DNA of 64,000 nucleotides, from positions 3,224,001 to 3,288,000 of the forward strand of contig NZ_CP082292.1 of the NCBI RefSeq assembly GCF_019880205.1, written 5' to 3'. This stretch comes from Pantoea alfalfae. Its GTDB lineage: Bacteria; Pseudomonadota; Gammaproteobacteria; Enterobacterales; Enterobacteriaceae. The translations under genes and the position numbers were made by a program. The notes under the pieces are model-generated. The model saw only the letters and a list, made by a program, of their open reading frames with translations. It made no database searches and was not told the origin of the DNA. Positions 1,413 to 32,534 of the stretch are shown one piece after another. Every line of letters begins with the position of its first letter. Positions within the stretch are counted from its first letter, which is position 1.

Positions 1413-3950
1413 TTATTTGCCAAACATATCTTTTATCCAACCTGCTACGCCGTCGCTGTCTTTCTGCTCCTGCTCCTGCGTTTGCTGGGCCGGTTGCTGT
1501 TGCGGCTGTTGCTGCTGTTGCTGGTCAAACAGCTGTTGCTGCTGCTGAACCTGCTGCTGCTGTTGCTGACACAGCGCATTCGGATCCAGCGCCCACACCG
1601 GCAGAGAACGCCAGGTGCTGCTGCCCGTGCCACAGACGAAGTTACCGGCCGAATCCACATTCATCAGTGATACATCTTCCGGCGGCGTCAGCTGCAGCGG
1701 CATGGGTGCCTGATTGTCGAGGTAGCGACGATAGAGCTGCATCGCACCGCTGGCACCGTAGAGTTTGGTCGGCTGGTTGTTATCACGTCCTACCCAGGTG
1801 ATCGCCACTTCTTTGCCATCAATACCGGCAAACCAGCTGTCCACCAGATCGTTGGTAGTACCGGTTTTGCCCGCCAGATGCGCATTCGGGAAACGCGCGC
1901 CCAGCGCACGGGCGGTACCGTGGTCAGCGACCTGTTGCATGGTGTAGAGCGTCAGATAAGCGGCCTGCGCCGGTTCCACACGCTGCGCCTGCGGATAGCT
2001 CTGATAGAGCACGCTGCCATCTTCTGCAATCACCGAACGCACCGCTGACAGCGACGCGCGATTGCCGCCGCTGGCGATCGACTGGAACGCCTGTGCCACT
2101 TCAACCGGCGTCAGGTTTAAAGCACCCAGCAGCATCGCCGGAACCGGATGCAGCTGCTCTTTCGGCACGCCCAGCTTGTTCCAGGTATCGACTACCGCAT
2201 CCAGCCCCAGCGTCATACCGAGGTTAACCGTCGGCACGTTCATGGAGTTGGTCAGCGCGTCCACCAGCATCACTTTGCCGCTGAAGCGACGGTCGTCGTT
2301 CATCGGTTTCCAGATGGTGCCATTTGGCTGCTTCAGCGCAATCGGCTCATCGGCGATCCAGCTGTTCAGGCGATAGCTGTTTGGCTGGCTCAGCGCGGTG
2401 AGGTAGGTCGCCGGTTTCGCCAGGGAACCAATAGAGCGACGCGCCTGCAACGCACGGTTATAACCGGCATACTGCGGATCGGCACCGCCGACCATAGCAC
2501 GGACTTCGCCGCTGAAGCGGTCAACCACCACCATTGCGGTTTCCAGATCCTTCAGACCACGCTGTTTTTTCAGCGTCGGAATGCCGTCAACCACCGCTTT
2601 TTCGGCCGCATCCTGCGAGACCGGATCCAGCGTGGTAAAGATCTTCACGCCGGAGAGATCTTTAATCTTGTCGCCCAGTTTCGCCTGAAGCTCGTTACGC
2701 ACCATCTGCATAAAGGCAGGCTGTGGCGTGATCACACCGCCCTTTGGCTGCACGCCCAATGGACGCGCCGACAGCATGTCGTACAGCTCCTGGTCGATCA
2801 CTTTCTGCTGCTGCAACAGGCGCAGCACCAGGTTGCGGCGTTCCAGCGCCAGTTTCGGGTTACGCCACGGGTTATAGAGCGACGCCCCTTTCACCATGCC
2901 AACCAGCATCGCCTGCTGATCCAGACTCAGCTCATCAACCGGACGGCCAAAGTAGTAGAGGCTCGCCAGCGGGAAGCCGCGAATCTGATCGCTGCCCGCC
3001 TGACCGAGATAGACCTCATTCAGGTAGAGCTCCAGGATGCGATCTTTGCTGTAGCGCGCATCCATGATCACCGCCATATAGGCTTCACGCGCTTTACGCC
3101 ACAGCGAACGCTCATTGGTCAGGAACAGGTTCTTAACCAGCTGCTGCGTCAGCGTACTGCCACCCTGCACCGCTTTCCCGGCCGTGATGTTCGCCAGGAA
3201 GGCGCGACCAATGGAGTACGGACTGATGCCATCATGCTCATAGAAATGGCGATCTTCAGTGGCGATCAGCGTATCGACCAGCAAATCAGGGAAACCGGTG
3301 CGCGGCACGAAGAGTCGCTGTTCACCATTGGGTGACTGCAGCATGGTGATCAGACGCGGATCGAGGCGGAAAAAGCCAAAATCACGGCCGGTTTCGAGGT
3401 TTTTAATCTCGCTCAGCTCATCTTTGGTAAAGCTCATGCGCGCGTGGATTTGCCCCTCTTTACTGTCGGGGAAATCAAACGGGCGACGCAGCAGATCAAT
3501 GGTGTTGCCCTTCACCGAAAACTCGCCAGGGCGGGTGATACGGGAGACTTCGCGATACTGAGTCCCTTCCAGCAGCGCCACCATTTCACTTTTGTTGTAG
3601 GCCATGCCCGGTTCCAGGCTGACCATGCGGCCATAGACGGTGGCAGGCAGTTGCCACACCTTACCGTCAATCCGGCTGCGAATTTCCGAGTCGAGGTAGA
3701 TGCCCCATGCGACCATTACCACCACAAACACCAGGAACAGTTTAATTAACCATCCCAGCCAACGGCGTTTGCCGCGCGGCGGTTTTCCACCTTTACCTTT
3801 ACGTGGCACCGGCGCTTCCTCCTCGTCATCATTAAAATCGTCCTGATCGATATCCTGTTCGATATCCCTGCGTCGTCCCCGGCCCGCACTGCTGCGCGGC
3901 GGCAACGGTTTACCTTTGCGCCCTATTGGTTCGCGATCGTTCCCAGACAT
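1413..3950 (-). CDS. mrcB: Penicillin-binding protein 1B, bifunctional peptidoglycan synthase
   Basis: Class A PBP polymerising lipid II (GT51 glycosyltransferase) and cross-linking peptides (transpeptidase) in the periplasm, anchored in the inner membrane. The 845-aa product has a charged cytoplasmic N-terminus (about 1-63), one membrane segment (about 64-86, [10 protein letters not shown]...), the GT51 motif [10 protein letters not shown], a SxxK serine motif (SLAK), SMN and KTGTT. The C-terminus ends [16 protein letters not shown], very like E. coli PBP1B, but is preceded by an expanded glutamine tract (about residues 790-830). Own terminator downstream; hrpB lies 98 bases upstream on the same strand. 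Confidence 0.96.
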
Positions 3951-22552: not shown

Positions 22553-23845
22553 ATGGCAAGAATTAACATTATTGATTTCGCTGCCGTCCCGGACGCCACC
22601 TCACTTTCCACTCAGGCGATACAGCGCGCGATTGATAGCGCATCAGCAGGCGACACGGTGCTGATCCCGGCAGGCCGCTTTCTGACGGGCGCGCTGTTTC
22701 TGAAAAGTGAGATGACGCTGGAGCTGGCGAAAGATGCCGTGCTGCTCGGCAGCGAGCGGCTGGAGGATTACCCAGATATCGCTACGCGCGTGGCGGGGAT
22801 TGATATGGTCTGGCCCGCGGCAATGCTTAACATCAATCATTGCCGCGACGTCACTGTCTGCGGCAATGGCACGCTCGACGGACACGGTGCCGTCTGGTGG
22901 CATAAATTCTGGGGCGAAGACGAAAACAGCGGGATGCTGGCAGACTATACCCGTCGCGGCCTGCGCTGGGTGGTGGATTACGACTGCAAACGTCCACGTA
23001 ACGTGGTGGTTTATCAGAGTGAATACGTGACGCTGGAGGACTTTACCTCACAGGATTCCGGCTTCTGGAACCTGCACGTCTGTTATTCGAAACAGGTTAA
23101 TTTGCAGCGGCTACGTGTGATGAACGCTACCGGACCCAGCACCGACGGCATTGATATTGATTCCAGCCAGTTGGTTCGCGTTGAAGGCTGTACGGTCTCC
23201 TGCAATGACGACAATATCTGCGTGAAATCGGGTCGCGGCGCGGAAGCACAGCAGCTCGGCAGAACCGCACGCGATATCATTATTCGCGACTGCACTCTGC
23301 TGAAAGGCTCGGGCATTACCCTGGGCAGCGAAACCTCTGGCGGTATCGAAAATGTCATCATCGAACACAACCGTTTCTCCGGCACGGGTGTCGGCTTTCG
23401 CATCAAGTCAGCCCGTAATCGCGGCGGCTGGATCAAAAACATCGTGGTTCGCCATCTGAAGATGGAGGATGTCTGTTATCCGTTTATGCTGCAGCTGAAC
23501 TGGTTCCCGCAGTATAGCTACAGTGAGCAGCCCGCCGACACCGAACAGCCGCCACACTGGCGTAAGCTGGCATCGGGCGTCACAGGTGATGCTGGCCTGA
23601 CGCGGGTTGAGAATATCAGTATCAGTCATATCAGCAGCAGCCTGACTGAGCCTGCGGCGTTTTCCCGCGCCTTTTTTATTGAAGGCACGCCGGAAAATCC
23701 GATTGAACGGCTGAGTTTCATCGACATCACACTGCAGGCGCAGGAGTTTGGCAAAATAGCGGGCGTAAGGAATCTGAGTTTTGAACGGGTTACGGTAGAC
23801 GCGCCGGCAATGACGCGCGAAGAGCATGACGCCTACGCGCGTTAG
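22553..23845 (+). CDS. Glycoside hydrolase family 28 (polygalacturonase-type)
   Basis: 430-aa right-handed beta-helix hydrolase for pectic polymers or oligomers. GH28 markers: STDGID (196-201), CNDDNICVKSG with the paired Asp 219-220, GITLGSETSGG (255-264) in place of the usual GHG loop, and FRIKSARNRGG (RIK 283-285). No signal peptide is seen (MARINIIDFAAVPD), so it probably acts in the cytoplasm on imported galacturonate or rhamnogalacturonan oligosaccharides. Exact linkage is unknown. It stands alone, converging on the DeoR gene across a hairpin, at the left end of the sugar-acid island. Confidence 0.85.
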   Translation: MARINIIDFAAVPDATSLSTQAIQRAIDSASAGDTVLIPAGRFLTGALFLKSEMTLELAKDAVLLGSERLEDYPDIATRVAGIDMVWPAAMLNINHCRDVTVCGNGTLDGHGAVWWHKFWGEDENSGMLADYTRRGLRWVVDYDCKRPRNVVVYQSEYVTLEDFTSQDSGFWNLHVCYSKQVNLQRLRVMNATGPSTDGIDIDSSQLVRVEGCTVSCNDDNICVKSGRGAEAQQLGRTARDIIIRDCTLLKGSGITLGSETSGGIENVIIEHNRFSGTGVGFRIKSARNRGGWIKNIVVRHLKMEDVCYPFMLQLNWFPQYSYSEQPADTEQPPHWRKLASGVTGDAGLTRVENISISHISSSLTEPAAFSRAFFIEGTPENPIERLSFIDITLQAQEFGKIAGVRNLSFERVTVDAPAMTREEHDAYAR

Positions 23846-23925: not shown

Positions 23926-24690
23926 TCAGGTGGAAGTCAGCGCCAGCGTAATGCCACGCTCGCGCAGCGTGCGGCACACCTCCTGATCTAACCGGCTGTC
24001 GGTCACCACATCGGTCAGGTCATCAACCGGTGAGGCGCAGAACAGCGACCAGGAGCCATATTTACTGCTGTCCGCCAGCAGGACCCGGCGCGCCGCATTG
24101 GCCAGCAGATCGTGTTTCAGCCCCGCTTTCTCTTCAGTCGGCGTGGTAATGCCGCGCTCAAGGCTCCATGAGTTACAGCTGACAAAGGCGATATCCGGAT
24201 TGATGCTGCGCAGCAACCGCCGTCCATGTTCGCCCACGCAGGACTGACTGGAGTCATCAATCCGCCCGCCAATAATCGTTACTTCGATCTGCTTAAACTC
24301 AGACAGAAACAGCGCAATGTGCAGGTCGGCGGTAATCACCCGCAGCGGCAGATGCGTGAGCTGTCGCGCCAGCTCCAGCATAGTCGTACCGGCATCCAGT
24401 ACCACCGCATCCCCCGCCCGGACAAAGCTGGCGGCGCACTCCGCGATCGCCTGCTTCTCGGCCAGGTTCCGCTGCATTTTCTCCAGCGTGGTCGGCTGGG
24501 CAGGAATAAAACGATTCAGGGTGACGCCGCCATGACTGCGGCTGATCACGCCCTCTTTATCCAGCTTAATTAAATCACGTCGAATCGTGGCGGGTGAGGC
24601 GGAAATCGCACTGACCAGTTGCTCAACAGTCACCAGATTATGGCTTTTCAGGTAATCCATAATCTGGTCAAGACGGCTCTGTCCCTTCAT
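23926..24690 (-). CDS. DeoR/GlpR family transcriptional regulator
   Basis: 254-aa regulator. It has an N-terminal DeoR helix-turn-helix ([20 protein letters not shown], then [20 protein letters not shown] and SHGG) and a C-terminal sugar-phosphate sensor domain with [11 protein letters not shown] and IIGGRID. It is the last gene of the leftward kinase-pdxA2-deoR operon, 6 bases after pdxA2. It probably controls both divergent operons through the operator region at 26961-27005; the effector would be a phosphorylated sugar acid. This is inference from family and position. Confidence 0.86.
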
Positions 24691-24696
24691 ATTTCC

Positions 24697-25677
24697 CTAT
24701 GCGAGCTGCATCGCGAGTTTAATCGAGATCGCCATGCTGTCAGACTTCGCTTTACCTGTCCAGGCGATATCAAATGCCGTGCCGTGGTCAGCAGAGGTGC
24801 GGATAAACGGCAGGCCTGCGGTAATGTTCACGCCATCATAGAAGCCCAGCAGTTTAAGCGGGATGTGTCCCTGATCGTGGTACATCGCCACCACCATGTC
24901 ATAGCGTCCATCCTGGCACTGCAGGAATACCGTGTCCGGCGGGCAAGGCCCGGAGACATCAATCCCCTCCGCTTTCATCGCTTCAATCGCGGGAGCAACG
25001 GTGGTGATCTCCTCATCGCCAAACAGCCCGTTCTCACCGGCGTGCGGATTGACACCCGCGACGGCGATGCGTGGTGCGCTGTAACCGACACGACGCAGGA
25101 AGGTGTCCGCCATACCAATCACCGTTTTGATGCGTGTCTGGTTGAGCGTATCGAGGAACTTACGCAGCGCAATATGGGTCGTGACATGAATCACCTTGAG
25201 CTTATCGGTATAGAGCACCATAGCGTAATCTTTGGTGTCGGTAAGATGCGCCAGCAGTTCGGTGTGACCCGGGTAGAGGTGGCCCGCCGCGTGCATCGCC
25301 TCTTTATTCAGCGGCGCGGTAGCAATCGCATGCACGTCACCGGCCAGTGCCAGTTCGGTGGCACGCTTCACGCCGCGCCACGCCAGATCCCCCGCCTCTT
25401 TCTGTACCACGCCAGGTTTCAGCGCGTCGGGATCGGCCAGCGGCTCATCGATCACATTGATAATGCCGGGCGCAAAGCGCGCATCGGCTACCCGATCCAG
25501 CACCCGCAGCTCGGCCTGTGGGGTGATGTTCATCGCCATAATGCGGCGCAGCGTACTGGCACAGCCAATCACCACGGCAGGGATGCCATTCAGCTCACCT
25601 TCAGAGAGCGCTTTGATGATGATTTCCGGGCTGATGCCCGCCGGATCGCCCATGGTGATCGCAATAATTTTACTCAC
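24697..25677 (-). CDS. pdxA2: PdxA2: 4-phospho-D-threonate/erythronate 3-dehydrogenase
   Basis: 326-aa PdxA-family dehydrogenase. Motifs include ITMGDPAGISPEI, TAPLNKEAM, GHTELLA, GVNPHAGENGLFG and MYHDQGHIPLK (metal-binding His). PdxA2 proteins next to DUF1537 kinases are known to oxidise 4-phospho-D-threonate or -erythronate, with loss of CO2 giving dihydroxyacetone phosphate; this pairing, not vitamin B6 synthesis, is the likely role here. Start: GTG 25677, with GGAG 7 bases upstream, overlapping the kinase stop by 8 bases; a TTG at 25692 is a poorer start. The biosynthetic pdxA is expected elsewhere. Confidence 0.86.
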   Translation of the reverse strand: MSKIIAITMGDPAGISPEIIIKALSEGELNGIPAVVIGCASTLRRIMAMNITPQAELRVLDRVADARFAPGIINVIDEPLADPDALKPGVVQKEAGDLAWRGVKRATELALAGDVHAIATAPLNKEAMHAAGHLYPGHTELLAHLTDTKDYAMVLYTDKLKVIHVTTHIALRKFLDTLNQTRIKTVIGMADTFLRRVGYSAPRIAVAGVNPHAGENGLFGDEEITTVAPAIEAMKAEGIDVSGPCPPDTVFLQCQDGRYDMVVAMYHDQGHIPLKLLGFYDGVNITAGLPFIRTSADHGTAFDIAWTGKAKSDSMAISIKLAMQLA

Positions 25678-26929
25678 TCGACTTCTCCTCAATAAAACTA
25701 ATGGCTGCTACCAGGGTATTTTCATCACCAAAGCCACCCGCTTTGGTCATCACCGGCAGAGTAAATTCACTGTTAAGCAGGACCCCGTGCGGCACACAGC
25801 CCGCCACCAGACCCTGAATTTTAAAGCCGCTGGCCCCCAGCGCCTGCGCGACGGCAATCGCCACGTCGCCGCCTGACAGATAGAGCGCATGCGGCAGCCG
25901 TGCCCGACACAGACTCAGGGTGATTTCGCCTAGCAGCTGACAGATCGCCTCACCCAGCTGCTGGCGCGTCACGCGGTGCTGCTGGCAAAGATCCTCGATC
26001 TCGTGCCGCTGGGATGCATGCTGGCAGGTGCGGATCACCGTATGGCGACCGGCACGCAGTGCGGTGGCCGCCTGTTCGATCCAGCGATCCCGCTCAGGCC
26101 AGGCGGACTGCTGAAACAGCTGACGGATATCGACATCGACGACCTCAACGGCGCGCTGAGTACGCAGCGCGGCGATCTGCTGCTCTGCCTGACGACTCAT
26201 CGATCCCACCATCGCCAGCACAGGTTGCGACGGGCGAACGGAGAGCGCAGCGCCCAGCGCATCGCTTAATCCGGCGGCCCCGACCAGCAGGGGCGTCTCA
26301 CTCAGCCGCGACGCAGCGGTTATCAGTCGCGCCAGGTCGGCCTCCGTTTCGGCATCCACTACCACGACGCCATCTGCTTCGGCTAACACAGCATCAAGCC
26401 GATCGCTATGCAGCGTCGCGAGATCGATCTCCATGCCGTCGATCTGCATCTGATGAATGACGCGGGCGCTGCGGATCGGGGTTTTAGGATCGCTGGCAAA
26501 TTCGGTGTCTGTCAGTAACCGCTGATTGACCCACACGCTGCCCTCACGTGTGGTGCGGCCCAGACGCGGTACGGCCGGTGCCACCAGCGCCAGCCTTTTG
26601 CCGCTGGCGCGCAGTGCCGCCACCGTTTCAGCCCCGATATTGCCGCGCAGCGTGGAGTCTATCTTTTTAAACAGCCAGCCCTGCTGAAGCTGTGCCGCGT
26701 AATGCTGCACCACCTGCGTAACGCGCTCTGCAGCCTGAGTGGCACTGACAGCCCGGCTGTCGGTGCTGATTACCAGTACATCCGCCGCCTCGTCGGGTAA
26801 CGTTGCTGCGGAGCCGAACAGCACATGTACACTGGCACCGGCCTGTGCCAGTCCACTACCTGCATCGTTGGCACCGGTAAAGTCATCGGCGATAACCAGC
26901 ACCGGGGTTTTCCATACTGATGAGCCCAT
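25670..26929 (-). CDS. Four-carbon acid sugar kinase (DUF1537 family, DtnK/DenK-like)
   Basis: 419-aa kinase that by family phosphorylates four-carbon sugar acids such as D-threonate or D-erythronate at O4. The N-terminal substrate domain begins MGSSVWKTPVLVIADDFTGA (Asp pair near residue 15). KKIDSTLRGNIGAE and the C-terminal nucleotide-binding part YLSGGDVA, then GFGDE, are typical. ATG 26929 is chosen because AGGAG lies just upstream; the longer frame to 26974 lacks a site. First gene of the leftward operon; overlaps pdxA2 by 8 bases. The exact stereochemistry of the substrate cannot be told from sequence. Confidence 0.86.
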   Translation of the reverse strand: MGSSVWKTPVLVIADDFTGANDAGSGLAQAGASVHVLFGSAATLPDEAADVLVISTDSRAVSATQAAERVTQVVQHYAAQLQQGWLFKKIDSTLRGNIGAETVAALRASGKRLALVAPAVPRLGRTTREGSVWVNQRLLTDTEFASDPKTPIRSARVIHQMQIDGMEIDLATLHSDRLDAVLAEADGVVVVDAETEADLARLITAASRLSETPLLVGAAGLSDALGAALSVRPSQPVLAMVGSMSRQAEQQIAALRTQRAVEVVDVDIRQLFQQSAWPERDRWIEQAATALRAGRHTVIRTCQHASQRHEIEDLCQQHRVTRQQLGEAICQLLGEITLSLCRARLPHALYLSGGDVAIAVAQALGASGFKIQGLVAGCVPHGVLLNSEFTLPVMTKAGGFGDENTLVAAISFIEEKSSE

Positions 26930-26960
26930 CCTCACTCCTGTCAGGCTATTGCCGCTGCAT

Positions 26961-26990
26961 TTGATTATATTCAATCATGATTGATTATAT
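26961..26990. promoter_or_regulatory. Repeat/palindrome operator between the divergent sugar-acid operons
   Basis: The 10-mer ttgattatat occurs twice, at 26961-26970 and 26981-26990, exactly 20 bases (two helical turns) apart. Between and overlapping them lie the perfect palindrome tcaatcatgattga (26971-26984) and the interrupted palindrome ttga-ttatat-tcaa (26961-26974). This is the expected layout for a cooperatively bound repressor, most likely the DeoR protein of the locus. Further AT-rich repeats (aaattaatcg, aaaattaatc) follow to about 27082. Confidence 0.6.
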
Positions 26991-27116: not shown

Positions 27117-28265
27117 ATGAACATTAACAGCACGGTGATCAGCGGTTATCAGGCGTTAAACGACATGCGCTATCTGCTGGATGGGATAGCGACGGCAGTC
27201 GTGGTCACTGACCGGAACATTGAGGCGATTCCGGCGGTACAGGCGCTGATGGGGCAACTCCGGGATCAGATCCCGCGTATCAGCGTGGTCAACAGCGTTC
27301 CACCTGAACCGAGCCAGCATGATGTGGCCGCGATTATAGAAACGCTCTCGCAGCGCCAGGCCGACATGGTGATTGGCATCGGCGGTGGCAGCGTACTGGA
27401 TGTGGCGAAGCTGCTCTCGGTGCTGTGCATCAACGGCGCACCGTCGCTGGACGCCCTGCTGGCAGGCGAAAAACCGCAGCGTCGCACCCGTTCAATGCTC
27501 ATCCCGACCACTGCTGGCACCGGCTCTGAAGCGACCCCGAATGCGATTCTGGCGATCCCGGAGAAAGAGACCAAAGTCGGCATTATTTCACCGGTGATGC
27601 TGCCCGATGTGGTGGCGCTGGTGCCGGAACTCACCACCAGCATGCCGCCGCACATCGCCTCGTCTACCGGCATTGATGCCCTGTGTCACCTGATTGAGTG
27701 CTTCACCGCCAACGTTGCCAATCCGGTCAGCGACAACTATGCGCTGATTGGGATGAAGAAGCTGTTCGCGAATCTCGAAACCACGCTGCGCGAGCCGGAG
27801 AATCTGCAGGCACGGCTGGAGATGCTCTGGGCCTCTTATTATGGCGGCGCATCGATTGCCCATGCCGGGACGCATCTGGTGCATGCGATGTCCTATCCGC
27901 TTGGCGGCAAATATCACCTGCCACACGGCGTTGCCAACGCCATTCTGCTGGCCCCCTGCATGCGCTTTGTCCGTCCGGCCGCAGTGAGCAAATTCGCTCA
28001 GGCCTATGACCTGCTGCCCGACGCTGACGTCCGTTTAAGCGATAAAGAGAAATCACACGCGCTGGTCGACTACTTCACCGCGCTGGTTGCGCGGCTGCAG
28101 TTGCCTGCCAGCCTGGAAGCGCTGGGCATCGGCCCGGATCACCTGCCTTATTTAGTGGAAGCGGCACTCGACGTGCAGCGCCTCATGAAAAACGTGCCGA
28201 TGGCGGTCACCGCCGATGATGTGCGCGCCGTCTACCTGACGCTGTTCCCTTCCTGCCAGGCGTAA
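27117..28265 (+). CDS. Iron-containing alcohol dehydrogenase
   Basis: 382-aa group III metal-dependent dehydrogenase. The NAD(P) motif GIGGGSVLDVAK (residues 87-98), TTAGTGSE, and metal ligands D187 and H191 (GIDALCHLIE), H256 (HAMSYPLGG) and H270 (LPHG) are all present. Family members interconvert small alcohols or hydroxy-acids and aldehydes/ketones (lactaldehyde, 4-hydroxybutyrate, maleylacetate types). As first gene of the rightward operon, directly before a DHDPS-family lyase, it may reduce or oxidise the aldehyde released by the lyase. Substrate unknown. Confidence 0.84.
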   Translation: MNINSTVISGYQALNDMRYLLDGIATAVVVTDRNIEAIPAVQALMGQLRDQIPRISVVNSVPPEPSQHDVAAIIETLSQRQADMVIGIGGGSVLDVAKLLSVLCINGAPSLDALLAGEKPQRRTRSMLIPTTAGTGSEATPNAILAIPEKETKVGIISPVMLPDVVALVPELTTSMPPHIASSTGIDALCHLIECFTANVANPVSDNYALIGMKKLFANLETTLREPENLQARLEMLWASYYGGASIAHAGTHLVHAMSYPLGGKYHLPHGVANAILLAPCMRFVRPAAVSKFAQAYDLLPDADVRLSDKEKSHALVDYFTALVARLQLPASLEALGIGPDHLPYLVEAALDVQRLMKNVPMAVTADDVRAVYLTLFPSCQA

Positions 28266-28276
28266 TGAGGATTGTC

Positions 28277-29161
28277 ATGAATAAGAAAATCAACGGCGTA
28301 CTGACCGCCATCGTCACCACCTTTGACCGTGAAGGTGCCTTTGACCCGGTAAGGCAGCGTGAGCAGGTCAGACGCCAGATCAACGCCGGAAACGGCATCT
28401 TCTGTGGCGGCACCAACGGCGAGTTCTTTGTGCTGAACGAGCAGGAGAAGATTGCCGTTACCACCACCTGCGTCGATGAAGTCAATGGCCGTGCGGCCAT
28501 CGTGGCGCATATCGGCGAGATTTCGACCCGTGAAACGATCCGGCTCGGCAAACAGATCGCCCGCCTTGGCGTGGATGCCGTCTCGGCGATCACGCCATGG
28601 TTTGTGCCGCTGAAGCAGCAGGAGCTGATCGACCACTATCAGCGCGTGGCTGACGCGCTGACGGTGCCGCTGTTCCTCTACAACATTCCGGCGCGAACCG
28701 GCAATACCCTGCAGCCAGAGACCGTTCGTACGCTGGCCGCGCACCCGAACATCATCGGCATTAAAGACTCCGCAGGCAGCTATGAAAGTCTGAGCGGCTT
28801 TCTGCAGGCTACCGCCGACTGTGAGGGCTTTGATGTGCTAAACGGCCCTGACTCACTGATTCATCAGGGATTCGTTGATGGCTGCTCCGCCTCCATTTCC
28901 GGGCTGGCAAACGTGGCACCGGAAGCAATTAACGCCATCTGGGCGCGCTTCAGTGCCGGTGACATTGCCGGTTCGCATCAGGCACAGGAGAACGTTACCG
29001 GCCTGCGCACCGCGCTGTACAGCATCGGTTTCTCACCGGCCGCCGTGAAAAAAGCGGTCAGCCTGCAGGGCTTTGAAGTGGGTGAAAGCCGCTATGCGGT
29101 GCAGTTCAGCGCCGACGAACAGCAGCAGATCCGTCAAATTGTGAACCACTACCTGCAATAA
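28277..29161 (+). CDS. DHDPS/NanA-family pyruvate-dependent lyase
   Basis: 294-aa class I aldolase of the dihydrodipicolinate synthase superfamily. The Schiff-base lysine is K163 (IIGIKDSAGS), the catalytic tyrosine Y135 (PLFLYNIPARTG), and the pyruvate carboxylate site GGTNGE at 44-49. Members act as DapA, N-acetylneuraminate lyase, or 2-keto-3-deoxy sugar-acid aldolases/dehydratases; genome context argues for a sugar-acid catabolic role. I start at ATG 28277 (GAGG 6 bases upstream), not the ATG at 28265 that overlaps the preceding stop. Confidence 0.85.
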   Translation: MNKKINGVLTAIVTTFDREGAFDPVRQREQVRRQINAGNGIFCGGTNGEFFVLNEQEKIAVTTTCVDEVNGRAAIVAHIGEISTRETIRLGKQIARLGVDAVSAITPWFVPLKQQELIDHYQRVADALTVPLFLYNIPARTGNTLQPETVRTLAAHPNIIGIKDSAGSYESLSGFLQATADCEGFDVLNGPDSLIHQGFVDGCSASISGLANVAPEAINAIWARFSAGDIAGSHQAQENVTGLRTALYSIGFSPAAVKKAVSLQGFEVGESRYAVQFSADEQQQIRQIVNHYLQ

Positions 29162-29240: not shown

Positions 29241-30656
29241 ATGAAAGCATTCTCAACTGAGAGCACCTTACTGATCGTCGGCATGGTGGTCGCCTATATC
29301 CTGTTCACCACCTGGCTGACATGGCGCTTACGCAGTAAAACCAGCGGCGACTTTATGGAAGGCTCCCGCGCCATGCCGGCCTTTATCGTCGGCATCATGC
29401 TGATGTCAGAGTATATCGGGGCAAAATCGACCATCGGCACGGCGCAGGCAGCCTTTGAGGATGGCTTCGCCGCTTCCTGGTCGGTCATCGGTGCCGCGAT
29501 AGGTTTTCCGCTGTTTGGCCTGATTCTGGTCAAACGCATTTATAACACCGGGAAGATCACGATCTCTGGTGCTATCGCCGAGAAATATGGCCGTTCGACC
29601 AGGAACATTATCTCGCTGATCATGATCTATGCGCTGCTGCTGGTGAACGTCGGGAACTACATCAGCGGTGCGGCGGCGATCTCAACCGTGCTGAAGATCG
29701 ACCTGACGCAGGCGGCCTTTATTACCGCAGTGGTAAGTACCTTCTACTTTGCATTTGGCGGCATGAAAGGCGTTGCGTGGGTTACGCTGCTGCACAGCGC
29801 CATCAAGTATATGGGGATTCTGATCATCCTCTATGTGGCACTGAAGATGACCGGCGGCGTCGCTCCGATGATCGAGAAAATGCCAGCGTTCTACTGGACG
29901 TGGGATGGCCACGTCGGGGCCAGCACCATTGTGGCCTGGCTGATCGGGACCGTGGGTTCGATCTTCTGTACGCAGTTTGTGATCCAGGCGATCTCATCCA
30001 CCAAAGATGTGAAGTCAGCGAAACGCGCTACCTGGGTTGCCTTCATTTTCTGCCTGCCGATCGGTCTGGCGATGGCGCTGATTGGTGTGGCGGCGAAGTT
30101 TGCGCACCCCGATATCAAGAGCCTCTATGCGCTGCCCGTGTTTCTGCAGGATATGTCACCGTGGCTGGCAGGCATTGTCACCACCTCGCTGGTGGCCTCG
30201 ATTTTCGTCAGCGTCGGCACCGTTGCGCTGGCCATCGCCTCGCTGGTCGTAAAAGACTTTTACGTGCCCTGGCGTAACCCGACGCCAGAGCGCGAATTCA
30301 AAATGACGCGCTGGATTTCGATTGGCATCGGCTTCTTCCCGCTGCTGTTTGTCCTGTTCTTCCCTGAAGTGCTGAAGCTCTCCTTCTTTACCCGCGCAAT
30401 TCGCCTGTCGATCACCGTGGTAGCGATTATGGCGTTCTATCTGCCATGGTTTAAGAGCACGCGCGGTGCCAACGCCGGTCTGATTGGTGCCTGCGTGGTC
30501 ACATCCGTCTGGTTCCTGATGGGTAACCCCTTCGGTATCGACAATATGTATGTGGCGCTGATTACACCGGCCATCATTATGGTAATTGACCGCTGTATCC
30601 CGTCACGCCAGTCTCAGCCTCAACCGCAACACAATGCACAAAATAGTGGAGCCTAA
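29241..30656 (+). CDS. Sodium:solute symporter family transporter
   Basis: 471-aa inner-membrane protein with about 13 hydrophobic segments of the SSS family (PutP/PanF/sialic-acid SiaT type). It begins MKAFSTESTLLIVGMVVAYI; DFMEGSRAMPAFIVGIMLMS and EYIGAKSTIGTAQAAFEDGF correspond to the conserved sodium-site TM1-TM2 area. It is probably the uptake route for the substrate of this operon. It ends one base before the sialidase-like gene, indicating tight coupling. Substrate unknown. Confidence 0.84.
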   Translation: MKAFSTESTLLIVGMVVAYILFTTWLTWRLRSKTSGDFMEGSRAMPAFIVGIMLMSEYIGAKSTIGTAQAAFEDGFAASWSVIGAAIGFPLFGLILVKRIYNTGKITISGAIAEKYGRSTRNIISLIMIYALLLVNVGNYISGAAAISTVLKIDLTQAAFITAVVSTFYFAFGGMKGVAWVTLLHSAIKYMGILIILYVALKMTGGVAPMIEKMPAFYWTWDGHVGASTIVAWLIGTVGSIFCTQFVIQAISSTKDVKSAKRATWVAFIFCLPIGLAMALIGVAAKFAHPDIKSLYALPVFLQDMSPWLAGIVTTSLVASIFVSVGTVALAIASLVVKDFYVPWRNPTPEREFKMTRWISIGIGFFPLLFVLFFPEVLKLSFFTRAIRLSITVVAIMAFYLPWFKSTRGANAGLIGACVVTSVWFLMGNPFGIDNMYVALITPAIIMVIDRCIPSRQSQPQPQHNAQNSGA

Positions 30657-30657
30657 T

Positions 30658-31854
30658 ATGACTCAGGAAACCGTCACCGCAGAACGCACCGGCCTGGTTG
30701 CGCCGCACCCGCAGGATAGCGCCCAGCAGATTGCGATGCTGCCCTCCTCCTGCCCGCAAAACCACGCGGCTAACCTGCTGCCGCTGCCCGATGGCGATCT
30801 GCTTTGCGTCTGGTTTGGTGGCACGCAGGAAGGGATTGCCGATATCTCGGTCTGGTGTTCCCGGCTGACAAAAGGCAGCGATCGCTGGAGTGACGCGCAG
30901 AAGCTGTCTGACGATCCGGGTCGTTCAGAACAGAACCCGGTGCTGTTTCTCGATCCGGACCAGATACTGTGGCTGCTGTGGACGGCACAGAAATCGGGCA
31001 ATCAGGACACCGCGATTGTGCGCTATCGCCAGTCTCACGATTTCGGCAAGCACTGGGGCGAGATCAAAACGCTGCTGGATAAGCCCGGCACCTTTATCCG
31101 CCAGCCGATTGTGGTGTTGCCCAACGGCAACTGGTTGCTGCCGGTGTTCTACTGCCTGACGCAGCCCGGCGAAAAGTGGGTCGGCAGTTATGACGTCAGC
31201 GCGGTAAAAATCTCGGAAGATAAAGGCCAGAGCTGGCGCGACGTCAGCGTGCCTGACAGCACCGGCTGCGTTCATATGAACGTCACCCTGCTGGATGATG
31301 GTTCGCTGCTGGCTCTCTACCGCAGTCGCTGGGCCGACCATATCTACCAGAGCCGCTCGTTTGATCAGGGTGAAAGCTGGAGTGCGCCTGAGCCGCTGTC
31401 GCTGCCCAACAATAACTCGTCCATTCAGGTCACAACGCTGCGCAACGGTCATCTGGCGCTGGTGTTCAATGCCATGAGCGCCGAAGGTGCCAGCGAGCGC
31501 CGGTTGTCGCTGTATGACGAAATTGAAGATGATGAAGAGGACAGTGACGTTGCGGTTGCCGCCGAGCCGGTGGTGCACAGCGGGCGGACCGCCTTCTGGG
31601 GCGCGCCACGTGCGCCCATGACGCTGGCTATCTCAACGGATGGCGGCAAAAGCTGGCCGCTACAGCGCAATCTGGACGAAGGCGATGGCTACTGCATGAC
31701 CAATAACTCTCAGCAAAAGTTAAACCGTGAGTTCTCTTACCCCAGCATCAAACAGGGCGTAAACGGCGAACTGCATATCGCCTACACCTGGTATCGCCAG
31801 GCGATCAAGTATGTGAGGGTCGACGAGTCCTGGGTGCGGGGGGGTGATGCGTGA
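30658..31854 (+). CDS. Sialidase-like BNR/Asp-box protein
   Basis: 398-aa six-bladed-propeller type protein with four Asp-boxes (SxDxGxxW): SHDFGKHW (126-133), SEDKGQSW (186-193), SFDQGESW (234-241), STDGGKSW (326-333). The N-terminal block HAANLLPLPDGDLLCVWFGG and EGIADIS resembles the BNR_2 sialidase-like family. There is no signal peptide and no (F/Y)RIP arginine motif of classical GH33 sialidases, so true sialidase activity is doubtful; a cytoplasmic glycosidase or lyase for an imported acidic glycoside is more likely. An acidic loop (DEIEDDEEDSD) lies near 287-297. Overlaps the SDR start by 4 bases. Confidence 0.78.
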   Translation: MTQETVTAERTGLVAPHPQDSAQQIAMLPSSCPQNHAANLLPLPDGDLLCVWFGGTQEGIADISVWCSRLTKGSDRWSDAQKLSDDPGRSEQNPVLFLDPDQILWLLWTAQKSGNQDTAIVRYRQSHDFGKHWGEIKTLLDKPGTFIRQPIVVLPNGNWLLPVFYCLTQPGEKWVGSYDVSAVKISEDKGQSWRDVSVPDSTGCVHMNVTLLDDGSLLALYRSRWADHIYQSRSFDQGESWSAPEPLSLPNNNSSIQVTTLRNGHLALVFNAMSAEGASERRLSLYDEIEDDEEDSDVAVAAEPVVHSGRTAFWGAPRAPMTLAISTDGGKSWPLQRNLDEGDGYCMTNNSQQKLNREFSYPSIKQGVNGELHIAYTWYRQAIKYVRVDESWVRGGDA

Positions 31855-32534
31855 TTGAAAAGATGGCGCTGGTGACCGGAGCCAGCTCCGGCATCGGTCA
31901 GGCGATTGTGGACTGCCTGCTTGATGAGGGCTGGCAGGTTACCGGCCTGAGCCGCTCGGCGATAAATCGGGCAGACGCGGGCTGGCAGAGCCATCAGGTC
32001 GACATCAGCGACAGCGCAGCATTGCAGGCTTTACTGGACAAACTGCCGGTGCCGCAGGCGGTGATCCATGCAGCGGGAATGATGCAGGCCGCGCCGCTCG
32101 GGGAGCTGGATCTGAACGCCAGCACACGCCTGTGGCAACTGCATGTTGCCGCTGCAGAACAGCTGGCCAATCATTTTGCGCCCCGGATGAGCGCGGGTGG
32201 CAGAATCGTGCTGCTGGGCAGCCGCACGTCAGGCGGTGCGTCGGGCCGCAGTCAGTATGTGGCCACCAAATCGGCGATGATCGGCATGGTGCGCAGCTGG
32301 GCGGCAGAGCTGGCACCGCTCGGCATTACGGCAAATATTGTAGCGCCAGGCGCCACCGAAACGCCGATGCTGCAACAGCCGGGCCGGGCCAGTTCACCAC
32401 CGCGCTTGCCGCCAATCGGGCGTTATATTCAGCCGCAGGAAGTGGCCGGGCTGGTCGGCTTCCTGCTTTCGCCGGCGGCAGCGGCGATCACCGGTCAGCA
32501 GCTGGTGATGTGCGGTGGTGCGTCGCTGAATTAA
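31851..32534 (+). CDS. Short-chain dehydrogenase/reductase
   Basis: 227-aa SDR enzyme. It has the cofactor motif TGASSGIG (9-16), catalytic Ser in LLGSRTSGG, and YVATK (Tyr136, Lys140). Without an acidic residue clearly at the end of strand 2, NADP preference is possible (GLSRS). Last gene of the rightward operon: GTG 31851 overlaps the preceding stop by 4 bases, with a G-rich ribosome binding site; the ATG at 31863 is an alternative. Presumably oxidises or reduces a sugar-acid intermediate. A strong hairpin follows. Confidence 0.83.
   Translation: MIEKMALVTGASSGIGQAIVDCLLDEGWQVTGLSRSAINRADAGWQSHQVDISDSAALQALLDKLPVPQAVIHAAGMMQAAPLGELDLNASTRLWQLHVAAAEQLANHFAPRMSAGGRIVLLGSRTSGGASGRSQYVATKSAMIGMVRSWAAELAPLGITANIVAPGATETPMLQQPGRASSPPRLPPIGRYIQPQEVAGLVGFLLSPAAAAITGQQLVMCGGASLN

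Follow-up and report, generated by a model that had tools for sequence, protein, structure and literature searches.

Bacteroides thetaiotaomicron degrades rhamnogalacturonan II (RG-II) with a polysaccharide-degrading surface system, in which BT1020 of family GH143 is the hydrolase for 3-deoxy-D-lyxo-2-heptulosarate (Dha). RG-II breakdown by this organism is the subject of previous reports (PMC7939467, PMC12282258). On the catabolism of free Dha, nothing was seen among the listed titles and abstract openings of open-licence papers. D-threonate is catabolized by DtnK and PdxA2 (Zhang et al., 2016, via PMC10971088). A set of genes named GR6 in E. coli BEN2908 encodes CitT-type, EbgC/NanQ-like, COG4692, DapA, iron alcohol dehydrogenase, OtnK/DtnK-like, PdxA2 and GlpR-type proteins, and the same report points to a similar cluster in S. 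meliloti (PMC12928451). Here we describe a related locus in a 64,000-nucleotide stretch of Pantoea alfalfae (NZ_CP082292.1, positions 3,224,001 to 3,288,000; the window). At its centre lies a gene for a BNR_2 propeller (30658..31854, forward strand), whose annotated relatives carry the NCBI name exo-alpha-sialidase. A first-pass annotation of the window had proposed that the locus, with an SSS transporter gene next door, imitates a sialic-acid operon and that its chemistry is probably different, and this view was strengthened. The propeller gene belongs to a conserved bacterial pathway and not to a sialic-acid operon. With somewhat better than even confidence, we read the locus as serving the degradation of Dha via D-threonate, with the propeller as a predicted intracellular ketosidase for a Dha glycoside. 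This reading draws on the Pfam BNR_2 match, a GH33-like structural model and conserved gene linkage.

The propeller is the fourth gene of a forward run that begins with an iron alcohol dehydrogenase (27117), a DapA-family aldolase (28265) and an SSS gene (29241), and ends with an SDR gene (31851). The divergent run contains a D-threonate kinase (26974 to 25670), a D-threonate-4-phosphate dehydrogenase (25692 to 24697) and a DeoR regulator, with a GH28 gene beyond. From their sequences, we take the genes flanking this island to be speD and yacL-acnB. A scan of named genomes confirmed 291 relatives of the propeller, the best 80 of which were kept for locus counts, and the open reading frames (ORFs) within 10 kb of each propeller were clustered. 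Next to the propeller we found SSS in 70 of the 80 loci, SDR in 68, iron alcohol dehydrogenase in 64, kinase and aldolase in 61 each, PdxA2 in 58, DeoR in 56 and a YhcH/DUF386 protein in 51. All four partner enzymes (iron alcohol dehydrogenase, aldolase, kinase and PdxA2) were present in 54/80 loci and at least three of them in 62/80. The named relatives with the highest identity were Pantoea, and many hosts belong to genera that are plant-associated by name.

The linkage extends beyond the Enterobacteria. A tblastn search of plasmids with the propeller matched 310 records, mostly Rhizobium (128) and Sinorhizobium (78); neighbourhoods were examined for 13 of these records and for one E. coli locus (strain 536). 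Alongside the propeller, R. johnstonii, S. meliloti, A. fabrum, Thioclava and Aminobacter encode an iron alcohol dehydrogenase, a DHDPS-family protein, a four-carbon acid sugar kinase and PdxA; the genes are arranged differently there, and a FadR/GntR regulator and an ABC transporter belong to the cluster. Vibrio litoralis kept the gene order of the Enterobacteria, SSS being replaced by a TRAP transporter. On a Subdoligranulum plasmid, consecutive genes encode iron alcohol dehydrogenase, aldolase, PdxA2 and the propeller, and a DUF1537-like fragment noted by eye at the edge of this locus (L200, 81-788) was left out of the counts. E. coli 536 and Klebsiella carried an SLC13-type permease and TerC; the E. 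coli 536 locus, situated between glnS and nagE (L193), holds the pathway genes with these two and is without SSS and SDR. Of 5426 complete E. coli genomes, 1043 hold a propeller gene that is 90-95% identical to the one from Escherichia sp. L164. Transporters of the linked loci were of the SSS, SLC13/CitMHS, TRAP and ABC types. When phages were searched with the Pectobacterium propeller, four records matched; one of them, MT836487.1, an unannotated 10-kb 'Bacteriophage sp.' from human faeces, has a 40% identical propeller (2233-3273).

A further scoring compared 24 control loci around other BNR_2 genes with 12 loci whose propeller is at least 38% identical, namely 10 plasmid loci, that of E. 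coli 536 and L176, a locus already counted among the 80; the short contigs L056, L062 and L066, of 13 distant gammaproteobacterial loci, and P. ananatis L194 were left out of this scoring. Iron alcohol dehydrogenase was found in 11 of the 12 and in none of the 24 controls, PdxA2 in 10 and none, kinase in 9 and none, and aldolase in 12 and 10, respectively. In a tree of 50 propellers, the 31 linked ones formed one side of a branch with a support of 99. About 20 of these 31 are close orthologs labelled by kinship, their neighbourhoods not being inspected, and three long-branch rows of the tree, Subdoligranulum included, may be falsely placed.

The divergent gene pair, which the first-pass annotation had left unconnected to the propeller, points to the substrate class. 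The DUF1537 kinase DtnK (25670..26974, reverse strand) scored 526.3 bits against the NCBIfam D-threonate kinase model (cut-off 450), and the D-threonate-4-phosphate dehydrogenase PdxA2 (24697..25692, reverse strand) scored 661.8 bits (cut-off 583). That both exceed their D-threonate cut-offs may be taken as a clue to the class of compound degraded. The Pectobacterium kinase of the same locus matched the PDB entries 4xfm/4xgj over all 442 residues (E 4e-265). The title of 4xgj names P. atrosepticum ECA3761, and the structure reportedly holds D-threonate.

The DapA-family gene (28265..29161, forward strand; PF00701, 207.6 bits) encodes the predicted Dha aldolase. In an alignment with E. coli DapA, NanA and YagE, its Arg144 (codon 28694-28696) corresponds to Arg138 of E. 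coli DHDPS, a position occupied by Leu in NanA and YagE. In the bound complex, Arg138 has been ascribed to the C7 carboxylate (PMC5380162), and it is reported to contact the carboxyl of a bound succinic compound (PMC11201819; see also PMC3188589). The motif with this Arg was kept in 60 of 61 clustered aldolase orthologs, the other one being without the motif, and the Arg was kept in 7/10 linked aldolases of alignment A6. The lyase had earlier been placed in the NanA family, and this needs correction, since it is not a NanA. Of the residues described for Neu5Ac (N-acetylneuraminic acid) recognition by NanA, D191, E192 and S208 (PMC5380162), only the first is kept, as Asp196, and Ser197 and Gly213 replace the other two. 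The protein scored 126.1 bits against the nanA model TIGR00683 (cut-off 382) and, despite having the Lys, Tyr and Arg138 equivalents, 175.9 bits against the DapA NCBIfam model (cut-off 206.15). With E. coli NanA as the query, the best match in the genome was the window's own DapA-like gene at 30% identity.

Enzymes of the aldolase's family form or cleave adducts of pyruvate. By Fischer projection, if Dha undergoes retro-aldol cleavage between C3 and C4 and the aldehyde is then reduced, D-threonate is the only tetronate that can result. The projection is consistent because the same rule applied to Kdo (an octulosonate) gives D-arabinose, the known product from Kdo. Dha is preferred as the substrate because of the D-threonate stereochemistry together with pyruvate release and a site for a C7 carboxylate.

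According to our proposal, a small Dha glycoside would be imported into the cell, in P. alfalfae by the SSS sodium symporter (29241..30656, forward strand; PF00474), the predicted importer of the glycoside or of Dha. In the cytoplasm, the propeller would cleave the ketosidic bond by hydrolysis, using a Tyr/Asp site like that of sialidases. A YhcH-type protein, which is not present in this locus, may open the ring in most relatives. The aldolase would then split Dha into pyruvate and a C4 semialdehyde acid (D-threuronate), which the iron-containing alcohol dehydrogenase (27117..28265, forward strand; Fe-ADH family) is predicted to reduce to D-threonate. DtnK would phosphorylate D-threonate, and PdxA2 would oxidise the phosphorylated product with loss of CO2 to dihydroxyacetone phosphate. 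The occurrence of a YhcH relative in 51/80 loci suits, by analogy, a ring-forming ulosonic acid: Neu5Ac forms a ring, and E. coli YhcH provides the aldolase with its open form; YhcH is reported to have no effect with 2-keto-3-deoxyxylonate, which is mostly open (PMC8141875). Two of these YhcH relatives scored 104.1 and 109.1 bits against the NanQ NCBIfam model, under its cut-off of 160, and 104 and 98.3 bits against the TIGR00022 subfamily, over its cut-off of 45.5. As to the source of the substrate, Dha is reported to occur in plants only in RG-II (PMC12168206) and is also described from the scales and theca of green algae (PMC10762512); algal Dha would suit the carriage of the pathway by Vibrio.

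The propeller ORF starts with ATG one base after the stop of the upstream SSS gene and encodes 398 amino acids, and the ORFs of relatives (e.g. L152, L160, L170) begin at a matching place. No export signal was seen by eye, the N terminus being polar and without a hydrophobic stretch, which fits the earlier description of an intracellular-looking protein without a signal peptide. The same description had put the protein in the sialidase-like propeller class on account of four Asp-boxes. This was borne out by exactly four strict SxDxGxxW motifs (residues 126, 186, 234 and 326) and by a Pfam BNR_2 score of 218 bits (cut-off 31.4). The four boxes are not due to chance, because in 5000 shuffles of the protein even the relaxed form of the motif occurred 0.04 times on average and at most twice. 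A motif search of the 398 residues also gave no (F/Y)RIP motif, as had been noted before.

An AlphaFold2 model of the propeller built from 34 sequences had a mean predicted local distance difference test score (pLDDT) of 82.6 and a predicted template modelling score of 0.85, with residues 286-313 and 344-355 below a pLDDT of 50. Its nearest solved structures in Foldseek were GH33 sialidases, including the M. viridifaciens sialidase 1eur (E 2e-17). Superposition on 1wcq, also GH33, gave Z 36.3 and a root-mean-square deviation of 2.3 over 309 aligned residues with 20% identity. In a single-sequence search of the PDB the best matches were anhydrosialidases (E 0.001). BT1020 was not recognised among the fold and sequence matches listed, and these lists do not exclude it.

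Sialidase residues were placed by profile alignment to solved sialidases (4bbw, NanC and others), and His36 by spacing only. The second and third sialidase arginines were found as Arg222 (31321..31323) and Arg318 (31609..31611), both aligned to the Arg of 4bbw and others. Tyr361 (31738..31740), aligned to the Tyr of 4bbw and NanC, is the candidate nucleophile. In sialidases, the counterparts of Arg222, Arg318 and Tyr361 belong to the active site, and the RIP motif carries the first arginine. Asp62 (30841..30843) is a candidate acid/base, which aligned to the EDID stretch of the P. gingivalis sialidase in a weak match (E 0.16). Profile matches in the N-terminal part were all weak (best E 0.16) and did not cover the site of the first sialidase Arg; by spacing, its place is taken by His36 (30763..30765), a His in 42/42 rows of alignment A2. 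The place of the sialidase Glu, aligned to the Glu of EAQ in 4bbw and NanC, is occupied by His206 (31273..31275). All six codons lie on the forward strand. Tyr361, Asp62, Arg222 and Arg318 were invariant in all 42 rows of A2, and these four together with His36 and His206 were identical in 78/78 close orthologs. In alignment A7, position 206 was His in 11/11 pathway-linked members and Gln in 5/5 unlinked ones. Two insertions (about 275-312 and 343-357, with SLYDE and CxxNNS motifs) were present in linked propellers and in none of the unlinked BNR_2 rows; the Subdoligranulum propeller lacks the first insertion and deviates in the second motif. The protein thus has the Asp-box propeller fold and the second and third arginines of GH33, and it is without the (F/Y)RIP motif with the first arginine and without a Tyr nucleophile with a Glu partner, the Glu being replaced by His206. 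The structural comparison suggested in the first-pass annotation came out GH33-like, with Tyr, Asp and two of the three Arg kept; His stands at the place of the Glu and, by spacing, of the first Arg, which leaves a part of the sialidase active site. From the model and the conserved residues we infer a ketosidase of the sialidase fold, adapted to a different ulosonic acid and probably a hydrolase.

The acidic loop at residues 287-297 (31516..31548, forward strand), predicted to be disordered with pLDDT below 50 over 286-313, had been considered an oddity. The acidic run is real and lies in a low-confidence loop, and judging from the aligned relatives it is a family trait and not a peculiarity of this gene: SLYDE(I/L) ahead of the run is kept in the Enterobacterial and most other linked members, and the run itself varies.

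Several observations weigh against the Dha reading. None of the four partners was nearby in 16/80 loci. Of these, L138, L142 and L176 are cut at contig ends; in the scoring of the 12 loci, L176, cut at one end, showed the aldolase alone. The other 13 loci, all from Pantoea, carry an SSS-BNR-SDR module, in some cases together with YhcH. Three of the 13 were examined genome-wide (L107 in G004, L116 in G017, L135 in G009), and all had aldolase and kinase elsewhere in the genome. In P. stewartii and P. ananatis the local kinase seems to have been lost or eroded. The Roseomonas stretch had adjacent genes for iron alcohol dehydrogenase, the propeller and a DHDPS-family protein, and no kinase or PdxA. 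The kinases of Vibrio (414.8) and four Alphaproteobacteria fell below the D-threonate cut-off of 450. The iron alcohol dehydrogenase was below every NCBIfam cut-off, scoring 214.9 of 550 for ErcA, 207.4 of 500 for 4-hydroxybutyrate dehydrogenase and 202.8 of 523 for lactaldehyde reductase. Its best score was thus to ErcA, and its best match among solved structures was 1,3-propanediol oxidoreductase; the near-equal scorer 4-hydroxybutyrate dehydrogenase has a product that equals D-threonate minus two hydroxyls. The aldolase Arg is absent in 3/10 A6 aldolases (R. johnstonii, Aminobacter and Roseomonas), which belong to another DHDPS subgroup, and is also the usual state in DHDPS. The scheme has no place for SDR, which follows the propeller in most Enterobacterial loci, or for the TerC found in E. 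coli and Klebsiella, and no secreted RG-II-specific enzyme was seen in the locus. Finally, some Pantoea have the core without any BNR gene, and there it is accompanied by a D-2-hydroxyacid dehydrogenase and an MFS transporter. The propeller is therefore an addition to a core that also exists without it.

For the distribution within the genus, 21 of 35 same-genus relatives were examined for aldolase and kinase. Among 22 genomes of the genus, 14 had the propeller and all 14 of these the aldolase; of the 8 without the propeller, 5 still had the aldolase (partial in G005, broken in G014). Pantoea G006, G018 and G021 have the propeller apart from the core and aldolase and kinase likewise elsewhere, and the propeller genome G012 had only a 31% identical kinase. 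No full-length kinase was present between PdxA2 and the iron alcohol dehydrogenase in L194, L146 and L153 (P. ananatis, P. stewartii), and in L054 only a fragment was seen. The core with the D-2-hydroxyacid dehydrogenase and the MFS transporter lies at speD-yacL in L179, L180 and L182-L185, and in G003 and G007 the whole genome has no propeller gene. In one Pantoea clade, SSS-BNR-SDR has as neighbours a tartrate dehydrogenase that exceeds the TTC model cut-off (L045, 4968-6038, and relatives) and a LysR-type gene in divergent orientation. A replacement of the threonate branch by tartrate dehydrogenase in some Pantoea was considered and dropped, since the searched genomes of this type carry aldolase and kinase elsewhere.

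The most credible alternative, although unlikely, is that the substrate is another 2-keto-3-deoxy diacid or ketoside, with a tetronate formed by reduction of what the aldolase releases. Linkage reveals the type of pathway and not the sugar, and the alphaproteobacterial kinases and some aldolases come from other subgroups. D-threonate stereochemistry, pyruvate and the C7 carboxylate site nevertheless favour Dha, and we know of no other common natural C7 ulosaric acid. A little less likely again is a propeller that acts within the Dha pathway as a non-hydrolase: a transfer or lyase-type enzyme, an anomerase, or a binding protein devoid of activity. The His residues at the places of the first Arg (by spacing) and the Glu, the anhydrosialidases among the single-sequence PDB matches and the core without a propeller in BNR-less Pantoea would agree with this. 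Against it stand the invariant Tyr, Asp and two Arg, and an anomerase candidate is already available in the YhcH relative of 51/80 loci.

Kdo is the other ulosonic acid of RG-II, and the same kinds of hydrolase and aldolase would serve for it, but we regard its catabolism by this locus as quite improbable. It would yield the pentose D-arabinose, and no isomerase or pentulose kinase was seen in the locus; genes for a pentulose kinase and an isomerase-like protein lie in a paralogous operon. The propeller paralog of this operon is Enterobacterial, shows 31-37% identity in the best segments and adjoins a DHDPS-family gene in 9/12 loci. In three of the five loci listed (L202, L207, L211) this pair comes with LacI, a kinase of the FGGY type, an isomerase-like protein and a transporter, either TctCBA or MFS, and L204 and L212 had the paralog with an MFS gene and none of the enzymes. 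In L202 (4630-13963; FGGY-type kinase, isomerase-like, DHDPS-family, BNR_2 propeller, transporter, LacI) the one locus scored, the kinase reached 549 bits against a pentulose kinase model (cut-off 408.7), and the isomerase-like protein matched the L-fucose isomerase C-terminal domain below its cut-off. The aldolases of the paralog operons were without Arg at the DHDPS Arg138 place in 9/9 cases. By gene content the paralog operon fits Kdo, which would give pyruvate and D-arabinose for an isomerase and a pentulose kinase, and counting the carbons handled downstream pairs each of the two operons with one of the two RG-II ulosonic acids. We give about even chances to the wider proposal that at least two phyla (Pseudomonadota and Bacillota) have a dedicated intracellular Dha pathway, leading via D-threonate to pyruvate and dihydroxyacetone phosphate, and Enterobacteriaceae a paralogous Kdo operon as well, ending in pyruvate and a pentulose phosphate, each with a sialidase-fold ketosidase, the Dha type being the subfamily with His at two catalytic sites.

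Very improbable is a function of the kinase and PdxA2 in vitamin B6 salvage from 4-hydroxythreonine with the other genes unrelated. The DUF1537 kinase STM0162 is reported to phosphorylate 4-hydroxy-L-threonine (PMC10971088), and the E. coli locus has been read in this way (PMC12928451), but both proteins here exceed the D-threonate cut-offs, and that they stay linked across classes to the aldolase, the dehydrogenase and the propeller calls for one shared function. Sialic acid (Neu5Ac, Kdn) catabolism, which the name exo-alpha-sialidase, the fold, the SSS transporter and the YhcH in relatives would suggest, is the least probable of all given the lack of NanE in the genome, the Ser and Gly for NanA E192 and S208 and the Arg for Leu in the aldolase, and a propeller without the RIP motif and the Glu. 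The absence of nanE had been noted earlier for the locus and was extended here to the whole genome, which had no PF04131 match; nanK was not searched for.

Three other genes of the island were inspected. The DeoR-family regulator of the locus lies at 23926..24690 on the reverse strand (PF00455, PF08220). The SDR oxidoreductase (31851..32534, forward strand; PF13561) is conserved with the propeller, and a 58% identical SDR was found near the Roseomonas cluster. The GH28 glycosidase (22553..23845, forward strand; PF00295, 96 bits), without an evident signal peptide, is a possible accessory. GH28 as a pathway member was not retained, its association being weak: it was present in 5/80 loci, 3 beside speD and 2 after SDR, and another GH28 in 7 more.

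If the Dha reading is correct, this would be the first Dha catabolic route known to us, for one of the rarest plant sugars, and a natural source of D-threonate for DtnK and PdxA2 would be explained. Soft-rot, epiphytic, nodulating and gut bacteria would feed on the most complex part of pectin. The name exo-alpha-sialidase would be wrong for these genes. Matches to the propeller lie in 310 plasmid records and 1043 E. coli genomes, the gene names being those of the listed rows only.

In comparison to E. coli nanA-nanT-nanE-nanK-nanQ, the present pathway likewise has a transporter, a DHDPS-superfamily aldolase, a kinase and, in most loci, an anomerase relative. It is without nanE, however, and has a kinase and a dehydrogenase for C4 acids in place of the N-acetylmannosamine kinase and epimerase, and its probable propeller hydrolase is intracellular. 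With the GH33 sialidases (1eur, 1wcq and the B. thetaiotaomicron 4bbw) the propeller shares the Asp-box fold, Tyr, Asp and two of three Arg. It differs from them by His at the places of the first Arg (by spacing) and the Glu, by two insertions relative to unlinked BNR_2, by the lack of an export signal as judged by eye and by its genetic partners. GR6 has the same kinds of genes and is filed under sugar metabolism and vitamin B6 synthesis, with no substrate named in the passages on it (PMC12928451). The proposed substrate Dha is shared with the BT1020 system, in which the hydrolase is part of a surface polysaccharide system. The kinase and dehydrogenase families are those of D-threonate catabolism, to which Dha is proposed here as the upstream source of D-threonate.

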